Below, one piece after another: positions 12,128 through 15,531 of a stretch of DNA of 64,000 nucleotides (positions within the stretch are counted from its first letter, which is position 1; the number at the start of each line of letters is the position of its first letter). The notes under the pieces are model-generated. The model had not been told where the DNA came from. It saw only the letters and a program-made list of their open reading frames with translations, and ran no database searches. Source of the stretch: Hymenobacter sediminicola (GTDB lineage: Bacteria; Bacteroidota; Bacteroidia; Cytophagales; Hymenobacteraceae); assembly GCF_014250515.1 (NCBI RefSeq), contig NZ_CP060202.1:1237001-1301000 (forward strand), given 5' to 3'. The translations under genes were made by a program, and so were the position numbers.

Positions 12128-12973
12128 TCAGGAATTGGAGCTGGCCAACTCAGATTCTTTTTTTGCAGCCGGTTGCTCTACCGCTGGAACTGCCACTGGC
12201 CGCCGCCAACTGCTCTGTTCCGGAATGCCTTTGGCTGTGGCCCGAAAACCGCTGGCAATAACGTCGTGGGCACGTTGGCGGAGCGCGGGTGCGTCGGCGG
12301 CAGTAAGGCCAGTAGTTGGAATCGGCTCGTGTAGCGTGATGGCCAGCGGCGAGTAGCGCACCCGCAGGCCGTCAACATCGGGCATGAAACGGTGGTTCAG
12401 CGGCATGGTAATGGGCACGATGGGGACGCCGGTAGCAATAGCCAATTGAAAAGCCCCATCCTTGAACTCGCCCATTTCCTCACCGGGTTTCTTGGAAATC
12501 GAGCCTTCCGGAAAGATAACCACTGAGCGGCCGGCTTCCAGCGTGCGGCGTGCCTGCACCATGGCCCGGCCCCGGCTGATGGCGTTGTCCCGGTCGACGG
12601 TGATGTAGGCCCGCCCGAAAATAGGCCCCCAGACCGGCACCTTGGCCAGAGAGAGTTTGCCCATGATGTTGAGCCAGCCAGGAATCGTGCGGAACAGCAG
12701 CGGAATATCGATGTAGGAGCTGTGGTTGGCCACGTATACGCAGGGCTGGCCAGCAGGCAGCGGGTTTTTCCTCACCGTTTCTACCGGCATGCCCCACATA
12801 AAAATGAACAGCTTACTCCAGTAGCGGTTCAGGGTATGCAGGTGTCGGTGCCACTGCGGTTTCTTGCTTAGAGCCAGCTGCAGCGGATACGTTACCACAA
12901 AGGGCATAACGAACCAGAACGTGGCCCACGTGGTGTAAAGCCGATGACCGATGTAGCGCAGAAGGTACCGCAT
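12128..12973 (-). CDS. plsC: 1-acyl-sn-glycerol-3-phosphate acyltransferase
   Basis: Acylates lysophosphatidic acid to phosphatidic acid at the inner membrane. From the ATG at 12973 the product has 281 residues. The acyltransferase catalytic motif H(X4)D is NHSSYIDIP, the phosphate-binding motif is VIFPEGSISK, and a later conserved stretch is GVPIVPITMPLNHR. An N-terminal hydrophobic segment (ATFWFVMPFVVTYPLQLA) anchors it. An upstream in-frame start at 13057 is disfavoured because a TACCTTTG promoter element lies between it and 12973. The last residues are Ser/Glu-rich and not conserved in the family. Confidence 0.92.
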   Translation of the reverse strand: MRYLLRYIGHRLYTTWATFWFVMPFVVTYPLQLALSKKPQWHRHLHTLNRYWSKLFIFMWGMPVETVRKNPLPAGQPCVYVANHSSYIDIPLLFRTIPGWLNIMGKLSLAKVPVWGPIFGRAYITVDRDNAISRGRAMVQARRTLEAGRSVVIFPEGSISKKPGEEMGEFKDGAFQLAIATGVPIVPITMPLNHRFMPDVDGLRVRYSPLAITLHEPIPTTGLTAADAPALRQRAHDVIASGFRATAKGIPEQSSWRRPVAVPAVEQPAAKKESELASSNS

Positions 12974-12978
12974 GGGTA

Positions 12979-12986
12979 CAAAGGTA
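12979..12986 (-). promoter_or_regulatory. -7 promoter element abutting plsC
   Basis: Minus strand TACCTTTG matches TAnnTTTG and ends only five bases before the plsC ATG. No clear -33 TTTG is seen at the expected distance. Confidence 0.5.
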
Positions 12987-13109
12987 AAATTCAAATGCTG
13001 AAGTGGCGGACTTGTAAGGCCGCGCGCCAGGACACTACTGGTTTTAGGGGCGTGCAAGTCACAATAGCCTAGCGCGATATTTAAGAGGGAAAGGCTGTTT
13101 TATGCCCTC

Positions 13110-13688
13110 TTATTGTTTGCGGCTGGCCAACACCTTTTCCGCTTTCAGCAACCCCGCCACACTCACGGCATCCGTAATACGGTTGTCCATCACCATCTGC
13201 ACGGCATCGGCCAGCGGCAATTTCCAGAGGCGTAGGTCCTCGGTTTCTTCGGGTTCTACTTCGCCGTACTCTAGGTCCTCGGCCAGAAATACGAACCCCT
13301 CTTCATCGGTCACGGAGTTGGAAGTATGCAGGCGCGCAATATTGGTCCAGCGGCGGGCCAGCAGGCCGGTTTCCTCGCGCAACTCACGTTGCGCCGATTC
13401 CAGCGTGTCCAACTCTACTGGGCCGCCGCCCATCGGAATTTCCCAGCTATACTCGCTGAGTGGGTAGCGGTATTGGCCCACCAGCCACGTATTGCCGTCC
13501 GCATCAACTGGCACAATTCCCAGTGCCTTGTTTTTCATCGTCACGACGCCATAGATGCCCCGGCCACCGCTCGGGTTGAGGACTTGGTCTTCACGGACAC
13601 TGATCCAGGGGTTGTGGTATTTGACTTCGGTGCTGAGCACCTGCCAGGGGTTGTGAGTTTCGTCGAGCGAATCGTCAGGGTAGCGCAT
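13110..13688 (-). CDS. Nudix hydrolase, ADP-ribose pyrophosphatase-like
   Basis: Probably hydrolyses a nucleoside diphosphate linked to another group, such as ADP-ribose. The 192-residue product starts at the ATG at 13688 (MRYPDDSLDET); a longer reading from 13796 adds a non-conserved hydrophobic leader. The Nudix box is MGGGPVELDTLESAQRELRE followed by ETGLL: the catalytic REL-REE core is intact, but the first conserved Glu is shifted by one position relative to GX5EX7REUXEEXGU. The upstream GQYRYPLSEYSWEIPMGGG fits the ADP-ribose pyrophosphatase group. It is the first gene of the minus-strand run, and is separated from plsC by 136 bases. Confidence 0.88.
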   Translation of the reverse strand: MRYPDDSLDETHNPWQVLSTEVKYHNPWISVREDQVLNPSGGRGIYGVVTMKNKALGIVPVDADGNTWLVGQYRYPLSEYSWEIPMGGGPVELDTLESAQRELREETGLLARRWTNIARLHTSNSVTDEEGFVFLAEDLEYGEVEPEETEDLRLWKLPLADAVQMVMDNRITDAVSVAGLLKAEKVLASRKQ

Positions 13689-13825
13689 GCAGAATAGAAG
13701 AAGAGCAAACTGTAAAAAGTAAAGATAAGGCCGCGGGGGTTGGGCATCCATCGGGCCAAGTGGCAGATTGGTCGGCAGAAATAGGCAGTTGGCCAAATAA
13801 AATGGGGCAAACTTCTGGTTGTGAG

Positions 13826-13833
13826 TAGCTTTG
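13826..13833 (+). promoter_or_regulatory. -7 promoter element for candidate small RNA
   Basis: TAGCTTTG matches TAnnTTTG. The -33 region is not convincing. It sits a few bases before a set of stem-loops ending in a terminator. Confidence 0.4.
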
Positions 13834-13839
13834 TTTCAT

Positions 13840-13984
13840 CAATACAAGGTGTGAGGGCGTTTTGTGGAAAGGAAGGCCTCTCTTACACCGTGCCGGATTG
13901 ATGCTAGGAGTAGGGTGGATGATTACTTATTCAACCGGCACCGTATTTAAAAAGACCGTTGCGGGATGCGACGGTCTTTTTGCG
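13840..13984 (+). ncRNA. Candidate structured small RNA with intrinsic terminator
   Basis: The 407 bases between the nudix gene and the small ORF at 14096 have no plausible gene. They hold, in order, a -7 element, stem I (GGTGTGAG 13848-13855 with CTTACACC 13882-13889, one G-U pair), stem II (GTGCCGG 13890-13896 with CCGGCAC 13935-13941, extended by TTGA/TCAA after a bulge) and a perfect terminator hairpin at 13949-13981. There is no ORF of note inside. This fits an independent RNA of about 145 bases or a riboswitch-like leader; I do not recognise a known family (it lacks the SRP tetraloop region, a B12 box or 6S layout). Confidence 0.5.
13949..13981 (+). terminator. Intrinsic terminator of the candidate small RNA
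   Basis: Perfect 11-base arms AAAAAGACCGT and ACGGTCTTTTT around an 11-base loop, ending in a T-run. Confidence 0.85.
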
Positions 13985-14060
13985 TTTTAGAGGCTGAAAA
14001 ACTGGAGGCGCCAAGATTCTGTTTCAACCTCCCGCCCGGCTGCGCCGTACCATTTCAAAG

Positions 14061-14093
14061 CCGACCGTTCACCTTCCGGTCGGTTCTGTTTTT
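14061..14093 (+). terminator. Terminator-like hairpin just before a small ORF
   Basis: Perfect seven-base arms CCGACCG (14061-14067) and CGGTCGG (14077-14083), followed by TTCTGTTTTT. It ends three bases before the ATG at 14096, so it may stop upstream transcription or form part of that gene's leader. Confidence 0.5.
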
Positions 14094-14095
14094 CT

Positions 14096-14347
14096 ATGGC
14101 CAACCAACCCAAAAACCAGTCTAGCCAGAATCACAACGCCCAGCCCGGCGACCCGCTGTTCAATCTTAAGCATGCGCAGGCCGAATCGGAGCTGAGCGTA
14201 CAGACCAACGGCCTCGGGCCAATTAGCAACGTATATGTGAGCTCCGATGAGGACGAAGAGCTTGATGAAGGACCACGCGACAAGCAAGGCCTGCGCCGTG
14301 GAGAAACGCCCCCCAGCGACGGTTCTGCTGCTGGCAGCCACAAATAG
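14096..14347 (+). CDS. Small hydrophilic protein of unknown function
   Basis: An 83-residue product with no recognised domain. It is rich in Asn, Gln, Ser, Asp and Glu, with an acidic patch SSDEDEELDEG near residue 50, and is predicted to be disordered. Support for it being real: an ATG start after a hairpin, no stop for 83 codons, and a well-formed terminator just after its stop. Two overlapping minus-strand frames of similar length exist, so the assignment is not secure. Confidence 0.5.
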   Translation: MANQPKNQSSQNHNAQPGDPLFNLKHAQAESELSVQTNGLGPISNVYVSSDEDEELDEGPRDKQGLRRGETPPSDGSAAGSHK

Positions 14348-14380
14348 ATACTTGTAATATTGTTTTAGATACTACCTAGA

Positions 14381-14421
14381 AAGGCCTCTCCGGGTGCTAA
14401 GGCCACCGGGGAGGCCTTTTT
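14381..14421 (+). terminator. Intrinsic terminator upstream of rnhB
   Basis: AAGGCCTCTCCGG (14381-14393) pairs with CCGGGGAGGCCTT (14406-14418) with one G-U, followed by a T-run. It ends the small ORF transcript. Confidence 0.85.
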
Positions 14422-14452
14422 GTGTGCGGGGTATCTGTTGGCGCTATCTTTG
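14419..14452 (+). promoter_or_regulatory. rnhB promoter
   Basis: TTTG at 14419-14422 (inside the T-run of the preceding terminator) and TATCTTTG at 14445-14452, 22 bases apart, approximate the Bacteroidota -33/-7 pair. The -7 element ends four bases before the rnhB ATG, so the message may have almost no leader. Confidence 0.55.
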
Positions 14453-14456
14453 TCGC

Positions 14457-15032
14457 ATGTTGCTCGCCTCCCATACCGGTCTTCCGCTCGAAGCGGGGCT
14501 CGATGAAGCCGGCCGGGGCTGCCTGGCTGGTCCTGTTTTCGCCGCCGCCGTCATTCTGCCTCCTGATTTCTCACCGGCTTACCTCAACGACTCCAAGCAG
14601 CTCAGTGCCCGCCGCCGCACCGCCTTGCGCGCCGATATATGCCGCGAAGCAGTGGCTTGGGCGGTTGCTGAGGCCTCGCCCGAAGAAATAGCGGCTATCA
14701 ACATTGCGCAAGCCAGTTACTTGGCCATGCACCGGGCTGTCGATGCTTTGGCTGTGCGCCCGAGCCACTTGGCTGTTGATGGGAACCGGTTCCGGCCATA
14801 TGCTGGTCTGGAGCACACCTGCCTCATCAAAGGCGATGCGCATTACCGTCATATTGCGGCAGCCTCCATCCTGGCCAAAACGTTTCGGGATGAGCGTATG
14901 AGTGAGCTAGCCTTGCTCTACCCACATTATGGTTGGGAGCAAAATGCCGGATATCCTACTACTCGCCACCGCACCGCTATCCGGCAGCATGGGCCTACCG
15001 AACACCACCGTATGGGCTTTCGGTTGCTGTGA
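14457..15032 (+). CDS. rnhB: Ribonuclease HII
   Basis: Endonuclease that removes RNA from RNA-DNA hybrids and misincorporated ribonucleotides. The 191-residue product starts at the ATG at 14457; a frame extension to 14394 crosses the terminator and promoter and is rejected. Motifs: LEAGLDEAGRGCLAGPV (the DEAGRG active-site Asp-Glu), YLNDSKQLS, HLAVDGNRF (third acidic residue), KGDAHYRHIAAASILAKTFRD and LYPHYGWEQNAGYPTTRHR. It converges with the response regulator gene across a shared terminator. Confidence 0.95.
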   Translation: MLLASHTGLPLEAGLDEAGRGCLAGPVFAAAVILPPDFSPAYLNDSKQLSARRRTALRADICREAVAWAVAEASPEEIAAINIAQASYLAMHRAVDALAVRPSHLAVDGNRFRPYAGLEHTCLIKGDAHYRHIAAASILAKTFRDERMSELALLYPHYGWEQNAGYPTTRHRTAIRQHGPTEHHRMGFRLL

Positions 15033-15040
15033 ATAGAGTA

Positions 15041-15090
15041 AAAGGCAGAACGCCGGCCCGTACAAAGTACAGGCCGGCGTTCTGCTTTCT
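15041..15090. terminator. Bidirectional terminator between rnhB and response regulator
   Basis: GCAGAACGCCGGCC (15045-15058) and GGCCGGCGTTCTGC (15072-15085) form a perfect 14-base stem with flanking A and T tracts on both strands. Confidence 0.85.
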
Positions 15091-15105
15091 TTGAGGCGTT
15101 GCTCG

Positions 15106-15531
15106 CTACTCTTTCATCTTCAGCAGGTCTAGAAAGAGGCTGAAACCATCGACGGTAGTGCCGCCTTCCCCGAAACTATCGAAACTGAGCGGCTTGATGA
15201 TATAGCCGCTTACAGCCAGTTCCTGCGCTTTCAGCCGTTCCGAATCCAAATCGGAGGTTGTCATGATAAACACGTTCAGGCTGACAAATTCCGGGTCTGA
15301 GCGGAGCTGCTCCAACAGTTCCAGGCCGTTCATACGCGGCATGTTAATATCGAGCATCACTACGCTCGGATGCTCTATCTTAGGCTGTCCAGCCTCGCCA
15401 CGCAGCATATTAAGGGCTTCGCGGCCATTGCGGGCAATGTGCAGCGGTACGTCGACGTTGTTCTTGCGAAGTTCGCGCTGCACGTTCATGATGTCCATCT
15501 GGTCGTCTTCGACCAAGAGAATACTGGGCAT
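15106..15531 (-). CDS. Single-domain response regulator (CheY/Rcp1-like)
   Basis: Receiver-only signalling protein of 141 residues. Acidic pocket residues E8, D9 and D10, phospho-acceptor D61 in VVMLDINMPRMNG, the conserved Thr in FIMTTSD and Lys in GYIIKPLSF are all present. There is no DNA-binding or enzymatic output domain, so it acts through protein contacts or as a phosphate sink. It follows a CHASE3 histidine kinase on the same strand (57-base gap) and is most likely its partner. Confidence 0.92.
   Translation of the reverse strand: MPSILLVEDDQMDIMNVQRELRKNNVDVPLHIARNGREALNMLRGEAGQPKIEHPSVVMLDINMPRMNGLELLEQLRSDPEFVSLNVFIMTTSDLDSERLKAQELAVSGYIIKPLSFDSFGEGGTTVDGFSLFLDLLKMKE

Follow-up and report, generated by a model that had tools for sequence, protein, structure and literature searches.

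Identification of the locus

Between a nudix gene and a short conserved ORF, the genome of Hymenobacter sediminicola has a stretch that codes for no evident protein, and the question it raises is whether this stretch holds an RNA gene in its own right or a regulatory leader of a neighbor, and how such an RNA might act. Positions below refer to the window, that is, the whole 64,000 nucleotides of DNA analyzed. On its plus strand, from 13826 to 13983, the window carries in 5' to 3' order a TAnnTTTG box, hairpin I, hairpin II, and an intrinsic terminator (table 1). We consider it very probable that this arrangement is a genuine small RNA (sRNA) gene.

Table 1. Features of the sRNA locus and its surroundings, in window coordinates
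Feature	Position	Strand	Description
Flanking NUDIX-domain protein gene	13110..13688	-	Pfam PF00293; divergent; adjoins the ancestral copy; synteny
Upstream element	13789..13796	+	TTGGCCAA; family consensus TTGRYCAA, then A-rich; starts 37 nt before the -7 box
-7 promoter element	13826..13833	+	TAGCTTTG (TAnnTTTG, Bacteroidota); from sequence and copy comparison
Predicted sRNA transcript	13838..13983	+	~146 nt; ends predicted from promoter (5') and terminator (3')
Hairpin I	13848..13889	+	8-pair base, 13848-13855 with 13882-13889, including one G-U; covarying
Loop I	13864..13876	+	GUGGAAAGGAAGG
Hairpin II	13890..13941	+	7 pairs, 13890-13896 with 13935-13941; covarying
Loop II	13906..13922	+	AGGAGUAGGGUGGAUGA
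Intrinsic terminator	13949..13983	+	14-pair stem, 5-nt loop, U-run
Flanking 83-aa conserved protein (ORF83)	14096..14347	+	Oriented like the sRNA
RNase HII gene	14457-15032		After ORF83

A preliminary description of this DNA had seen no ORF in the region, and in the ORF list of the window none of 60 amino acids or more overlaps 13826-13985. Among the 64 of 70 aligned homologous copies that have standard loops, the distance from loop I to loop II ranges from 34 to 40 nt with all three reading phases represented. Together these two observations indicate that the locus is noncoding. The ORF83 protein has no Pfam match at E ≤ 0.001. Just 5' of the ORF83 ATG lies a further hairpin (14056-14088), whose loop is kept (TTCACMTYCCGG-like) and whose stem varies over six aligned loci, two of them lacking the sRNA; it is possibly a cis-regulatory leader of ORF83.

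Distribution in Hymenobacter

When 99 genomes, among them the window's own, were searched by BLAST, 71 had matches at E ≤ 1, mostly short and unrelated; inspection identified 11 loci as true copies (E up to 0.045). All 11 have the gene order nudix (-), RNA (+), 83-aa ORF (+), and RNase HII gene, with RNase HII matching at 78-100% in every case. The covariance model R1, built from these 11 copies, matched 99 of 120 Hymenobacter genomes at E ≤ 1, and R2, built from 70 copies, matched 95 of the 120 at E ≤ 0.01. Two to four copies are present in 20 of those 95 carriers.

Beyond the genus, all 94 genomes that R1 matched at E ≤ 0.1, among 204 of the family, belong to Hymenobacter, and so do all 40 stretches returned by a scan for the two-loop pattern across 84,980 species, each represented by one genome. 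Over 390 genomes of the order, R2 matched 43, of which 39 belong to the genus and the other four score 22-30 bits. These four were set aside as chance matches, the two alignments inspected sharing only a simple hairpin and part of loop I. BLAST of the window's copy found no match in phages or plasmids, and the loop pattern none in viral contigs. As far as searched, with stricter filters that lose weak matches applied to the large genome sets, the sRNA family thus appears to be confined to Hymenobacter.

Promoter, upstream element, and terminator

The preliminary description had credited the element with its own promoter-like sequence and terminator, and the homologous copies bear this out. In 69 of the 70 copies TAnnTTTG precedes the start of the model by 17-24 nt, compared with 12 of 3,500 shuffles, the exception (L084) carrying GTACTTTG; a terminator is present in all 70 copies compared with 12 of 350 shuffles. 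The terminator had also been called perfect: its 14-pair stem stands, and the adjective holds only if a G-U pair is counted, as the arms (13949-13962 and 13968-13981) form 13 Watson-Crick pairs and one G-U. Scanning 12800-15200 for the sigma-70 consensus found no promoter, and the simple terminator scan likewise did not list the sRNA terminator.

The Bacteroidota promoter box is placed at -12 to -5 in two reports (PMC9723704, PMC6847099), so that transcription would be expected to begin near 13838 and to yield an RNA of the length given in table 1. For Flavobacterium johnsoniae promoters the latter report describes G as virtually absent at -10 and a -33 motif as little evident (PMC6847099). 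A G occupies the -10 position in 23 of the 70 sRNA copies, including the window's, and no TTG-type element is conserved among the 70 at the usual -33 position. Instead, a TTGRYCAA-like element lies ~37 nt before the box, with at least seven of eight letters in 50 of 69 scored copies and in 1.3% of shuffles, a comparison in which the consensus comes from the very copies scored and relatedness is uncorrected. Given its position, and since nothing of the TTG type is conserved at -33, this element is probably an activator site. The main sigma factor would then transcribe the sRNA with the help of an activator bound there.

Conserved stems and constant loops

Both stem-loops of the preliminary description, one of 8 bp and one of 7 bp extended after a bulge, were recovered from the sequence and from the folds. 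In hairpin II the one-base bulge is followed by four further pairs (13898-13901 with 13931-13934). The window's own minimum-energy fold adds weak pairs that close part of both loops and are absent from the consensus. On the plus strand the region folds with z = -4.27, none of 200 shuffles being as good, and the minus strand folds almost equally well (z = -4.14), so the strand cannot be read from folding energy. The plus strand is favored by the excess of G-U over A-C among stem cells of the 70 copies (210 vs. 39), by the promoter box, and by the U-run.

RNAalifold on the 11 sequences returned 22 pairs, 14 of them with double changes. For the distinct sequences among the 11, in a MAFFT alignment but with the structure derived from the same sequences, 88.4% of cells were paired compared with 75.5% in shuffles, and 15 of 22 pairs had double changes; sliding the partners by one to three columns lowered pairing to 38-44%. 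Over the 70 copies (68 distinct), whose alignment was fitted to the covariance model and so leans the counts toward structure, the corresponding values were 85.5% of cells paired, double changes in 20 of the 22 pairs, and 28-53% paired after sliding. Four of five covariation measures were reached by none of 500 shuffles in either set, and the fifth, which counts further pair types, was weaker, being reached by 58 of 500 shuffles with the 11 sequences and by 3 of 500 over the 70 copies. Stems I and II are therefore kept as stems while their letters vary. Conservation and compensatory change, whose absence the preliminary description had named as fatal to its proposal, were thus both found, in stems that covary and in a gene carried by 95 of the 120 genomes of the genus.

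The loops present the opposite picture: both are purine rich and nearly constant, their letters fixed where the stems vary freely. All 70 aligned copies contain UGGAAAGGAA in loop I, and 68 contain UGGAAAGGAAG. In loop II, 52 copies have GUAGGGUGGAU, 11 have GUGGGGUAGAC, three have AUAGGGUGGAU, and four have other sequences (L080, L089, L094, and L095). Where GUGGGGUAGAC occurs, variable stems close the motif into a little hairpin whose loop has 7 nt. Only one clade shows a clear apical helix in loop II, and the general model therefore omits it. Among weaker copies outside the 70, L199 and L200 break the loop I rule. A natural loop variant is found in genome G031, where copy L203 keeps loop I and has loop II rewritten to GTGGAAAGGGAAAG-like. 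The constant loops, like the upstream element and the paralogues and gene-less clades considered below, go beyond the preliminary description.

Copy placement, paralogues, and probable losses

Of the 70 copies, 48 occupy the nudix/ORF83/RNase HII site and 22 lie elsewhere, the latter not being an unbiased paralogue fraction, as loci were chosen to favor multicopy genomes. The copy between the nudix gene and ORF83, beside the RNase HII gene, is the ancestral one. Two groups of paralogues keep neighbors of their own: seven copies lie behind aspartokinase-like (AA_kinase plus ACT) and diaminopimelate decarboxylase-like genes, and six lie between a CarboxypepD_reg-like gene and a helix-turn-helix gene. 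These paralogues are therefore stably placed, and the comparison of copies shows that the promoter box, RNA, and terminator move together as one cassette. In the four-copy genome G120, one of the extra copies L083 and L084 has an ORF with integrase-core (rve) domains at a distance of 1.4 kb and the other adjoins a phage-integrase-like ORF, hinting at mobility in that clade.

We also examined 20 genomes at the weak end of the distribution, namely G031, which has a weak match, and 19 of the 25 that the model did not match at E ≤ 0.01. All 20 keep the nudix gene. In the 19 without an sRNA match neither loop motif occurs in the stretch upstream of that gene, and ORF83 follows, as judged by eye in all 19 and confirmed by tblastn for the 18 placed in a tree. 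At L217-L219 the intergenic stretch is still ~290 nt long and could contain a decayed remnant of the sRNA. The tree, inferred from nudix plus ORF83 (at most ~275 residues, midpoint rooted), includes 18 of the 19 cassette-less loci, L218 having been dropped at the length or ORF83 filter. They form two clades of 13 and five members, each beside carriers, with local supports of 0.997 and 0.965 and deeper nodes mostly at 0.77-0.87. Two clades so placed are most simply interpreted as two losses of what would be a dispensable gene.

These patterns bear on whether the element is a 5' leader of ORF83, such as a riboswitch or attenuator with a regulated terminator. The preliminary description had dismissed a leader role on the grounds that the element lies between divergent genes. 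That geometric argument fails, as the sRNA and ORF83 point in the same direction, and a shared strand together with the gene order kept in 48 of 70 copies is what a leader would predict. The conclusion itself survives on other grounds: neither nudix nor ORF83 was found at the 22 copies located elsewhere, and the 19 cassette-less genomes show no sRNA yet keep nudix and, on visual inspection, ORF83 with the leader hairpin directly before it. A leader of ORF83 is consequently very unlikely, and the independent sRNA remains the preferred reading.

Target and partner searches

We somewhat favor the view that this is an independent ~146-nt Hymenobacter sRNA, aided by an activator, that acts in trans via its loops and probably pairs with mRNAs through short seeds without Hfq. 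The two hairpins would present the two nearly constant purine-rich loops as the working parts. Since copies occur at unrelated places, the loops may act in trans, and, with less certainty, they could form short-seed pairs with C/U-rich stretches of several mRNAs with no involvement of Hfq. For mRNA pairing as the main mechanism we see an even chance; we rank it first and protein binding second, as constancy over 10-11 nt of loop would also fit the latter.

Complements of the loops were counted in 14 genomes. For loop II (15-mer, up to two mismatches, the 14 sRNA genes removed) 74 were found, near the 65 of a reversed-pattern control, and for loop I (11-mer) the count of 74 is a modest excess over the control value of 46. 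No conserved long antisense target was found among the loop complements of the 14 genomes, 16 sites of which were inspected. Of the 10 non-self sites examined in the window's genome, nine fall within sense ORFs of 80 amino acids or more and one falls in none. Three sites are common to this genome and its closest relative (G007), all inside ORFs. When 30 loop I sites were compared by tblastx, six fell into one group and two formed a pair; judged by their place, five or more of the six (L157, L163, L164, L174, and L179) are the sRNA locus itself. Of the six sites in G007, three (L233, L236, and L238) precede ORF starts by 10, 55, and 15 nt, a position to be expected of a target, and none of these is shared; they possibly represent species-specific targets, or chance.

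Profile searches for RNA-binding partners found neither CsrA (PF02599; positive control in three of 14 named genomes) nor RRM_1 (control positive in two of 14, including Bacteroides ihuae) in the window's genome, and no Hfq (PF17209) in any of 120 Hymenobacter genomes (control positive in five of 14 named genomes). An sRNA dependent on Hfq was rejected on the latter result, and a CsrA sponge was rejected for want of a PF02599 match in the window's genome.

The loops could alternatively bind an RNA-binding protein, the RNA serving as a sponge or scaffold with no mRNA pairing. Loop letters that are almost fixed beside freely variable stems would suit this role, as would the richness of both loops in GGA or GG, the near-control number of loop II complements, and the one to four copies per carrier, which a titrating RNA could show. 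The search results above oblige the partner to be a protein other than CsrA, an RRM_1 protein, or Hfq, and we regard protein binding as a real but clearly less probable option than mRNA pairing.

A further possibility is that the RNA pairs with the anti-Shine-Dalgarno tail at the 3' end of 16S rRNA through GGAAAGGA or AAAGGAG and so modulates ribosomes. With a 16S rRNA tail of CACCUCCUUUCU, alignment by hand with GGAAAGGA of loop I would give eight paired positions, one of them G-U. Outside that segment loop I has no partner in the tail, however, and neither does most of loop II; the window's loop II keeps only AGGAG, and short purine matches of this sort are likely to arise by chance. Bacteroidota mRNAs lack Shine-Dalgarno sequences while their ribosomes keep the anti-Shine-Dalgarno, according to PMC6847099, and even so we judge this pairing improbable. 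The preferred reading remains short-seed pairing with mRNAs.

Relationship to known RNAs

No Rfam 15 family was matched at its gathering score in the window or in 20 homologous loci, in agreement with the preliminary description, which could name no known family; matches in the region below that threshold were to unrelated families (best E 0.063). A limited open-access literature search by genus name found no report of a Hymenobacter RNA of this kind. Broad conservation inside one genus might also be expected of a housekeeping RNA (6S, SRP RNA, or tmRNA) so diverged that Rfam misses it. In addition to the Rfam result, ARAGORN found no tmRNA in the window, and absence from 19 examined genomes would be unexpected for SRP RNA or tmRNA. 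The architecture of 6S RNA is not one of two side-by-side hairpins, which sets it apart from the fold found here. A diverged housekeeping RNA is thus the least credible of the alternatives, and the comparisons point to an uncatalogued family of independent regulatory sRNAs, a type of RNA already known.

The sRNAs of the CsrB/RsmY/RsmZ type titrate a CsrA-type protein and display GGA segments in hairpin loops. The Hymenobacter RNA is similar in having GGA-containing segments in hairpin loops and differs in having two distinct constant motifs of 10-11 nt rather than one short repeat.

In kind, the closest analogue is FopS of Bacteroides thetaiotaomicron, which shows that multicopy sRNAs acting by base pairing occur in Bacteroidota (PMC11697453). 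FopS comprises 14 paralogous sRNAs, nine intergenic, four antisense, and one derived from a 3' UTR, with canonical sigma-ABfr promoters, a Rho-independent terminator, and a common conserved exposed segment (PMC11697453). These RNAs of ~65-70 nt consist of a single-stranded 5' seed stretch and a terminator hairpin, and associate with RbpB, an RNA-binding protein of the RRM type (PMC11697453). FopS and GibS (PMC11697453) resemble the present family as multicopy paralogous sRNAs of Bacteroidota with promoter and terminator. FopS differs in architecture and partner: the Hymenobacter RNA, at a predicted ~146 nt, has two covarying loop-presenting hairpins before its terminator, and the partner RbpB of FopS contrasts with the lack of an RRM_1 match in the window's genome. 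Rfp18 and other Rfp RNAs of Flavobacterium psychrophilum are independently transcribed sRNAs, some of them structured and conserved in their genus (PMC9723704). They are likened here by description only, as newly described independent sRNAs from another genus of Bacteroidota (PMC9723704).

Implications

The locus defines a well-delimited sRNA family in a large genus of environmental bacteria whose examined genomes gave no Hfq match. The covariance model locates the sRNA in 95 genomes, and relatives that lack it provide controls. The paralogues, the predicted activator site, and the two constant loops, which could be used as bait for a partner, are assets of the family. Tentatively, and with slightly less confidence than we give to protein binding as such, it may be a genus-wide RNA that captures an RNA-binding protein via its two loop motifs under the control of an activator. 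If true, this would make it a post-transcriptional hub in bacteria with no Hfq match in 120 genomes and, in the window's genome, no match to CsrA or RRM_1.
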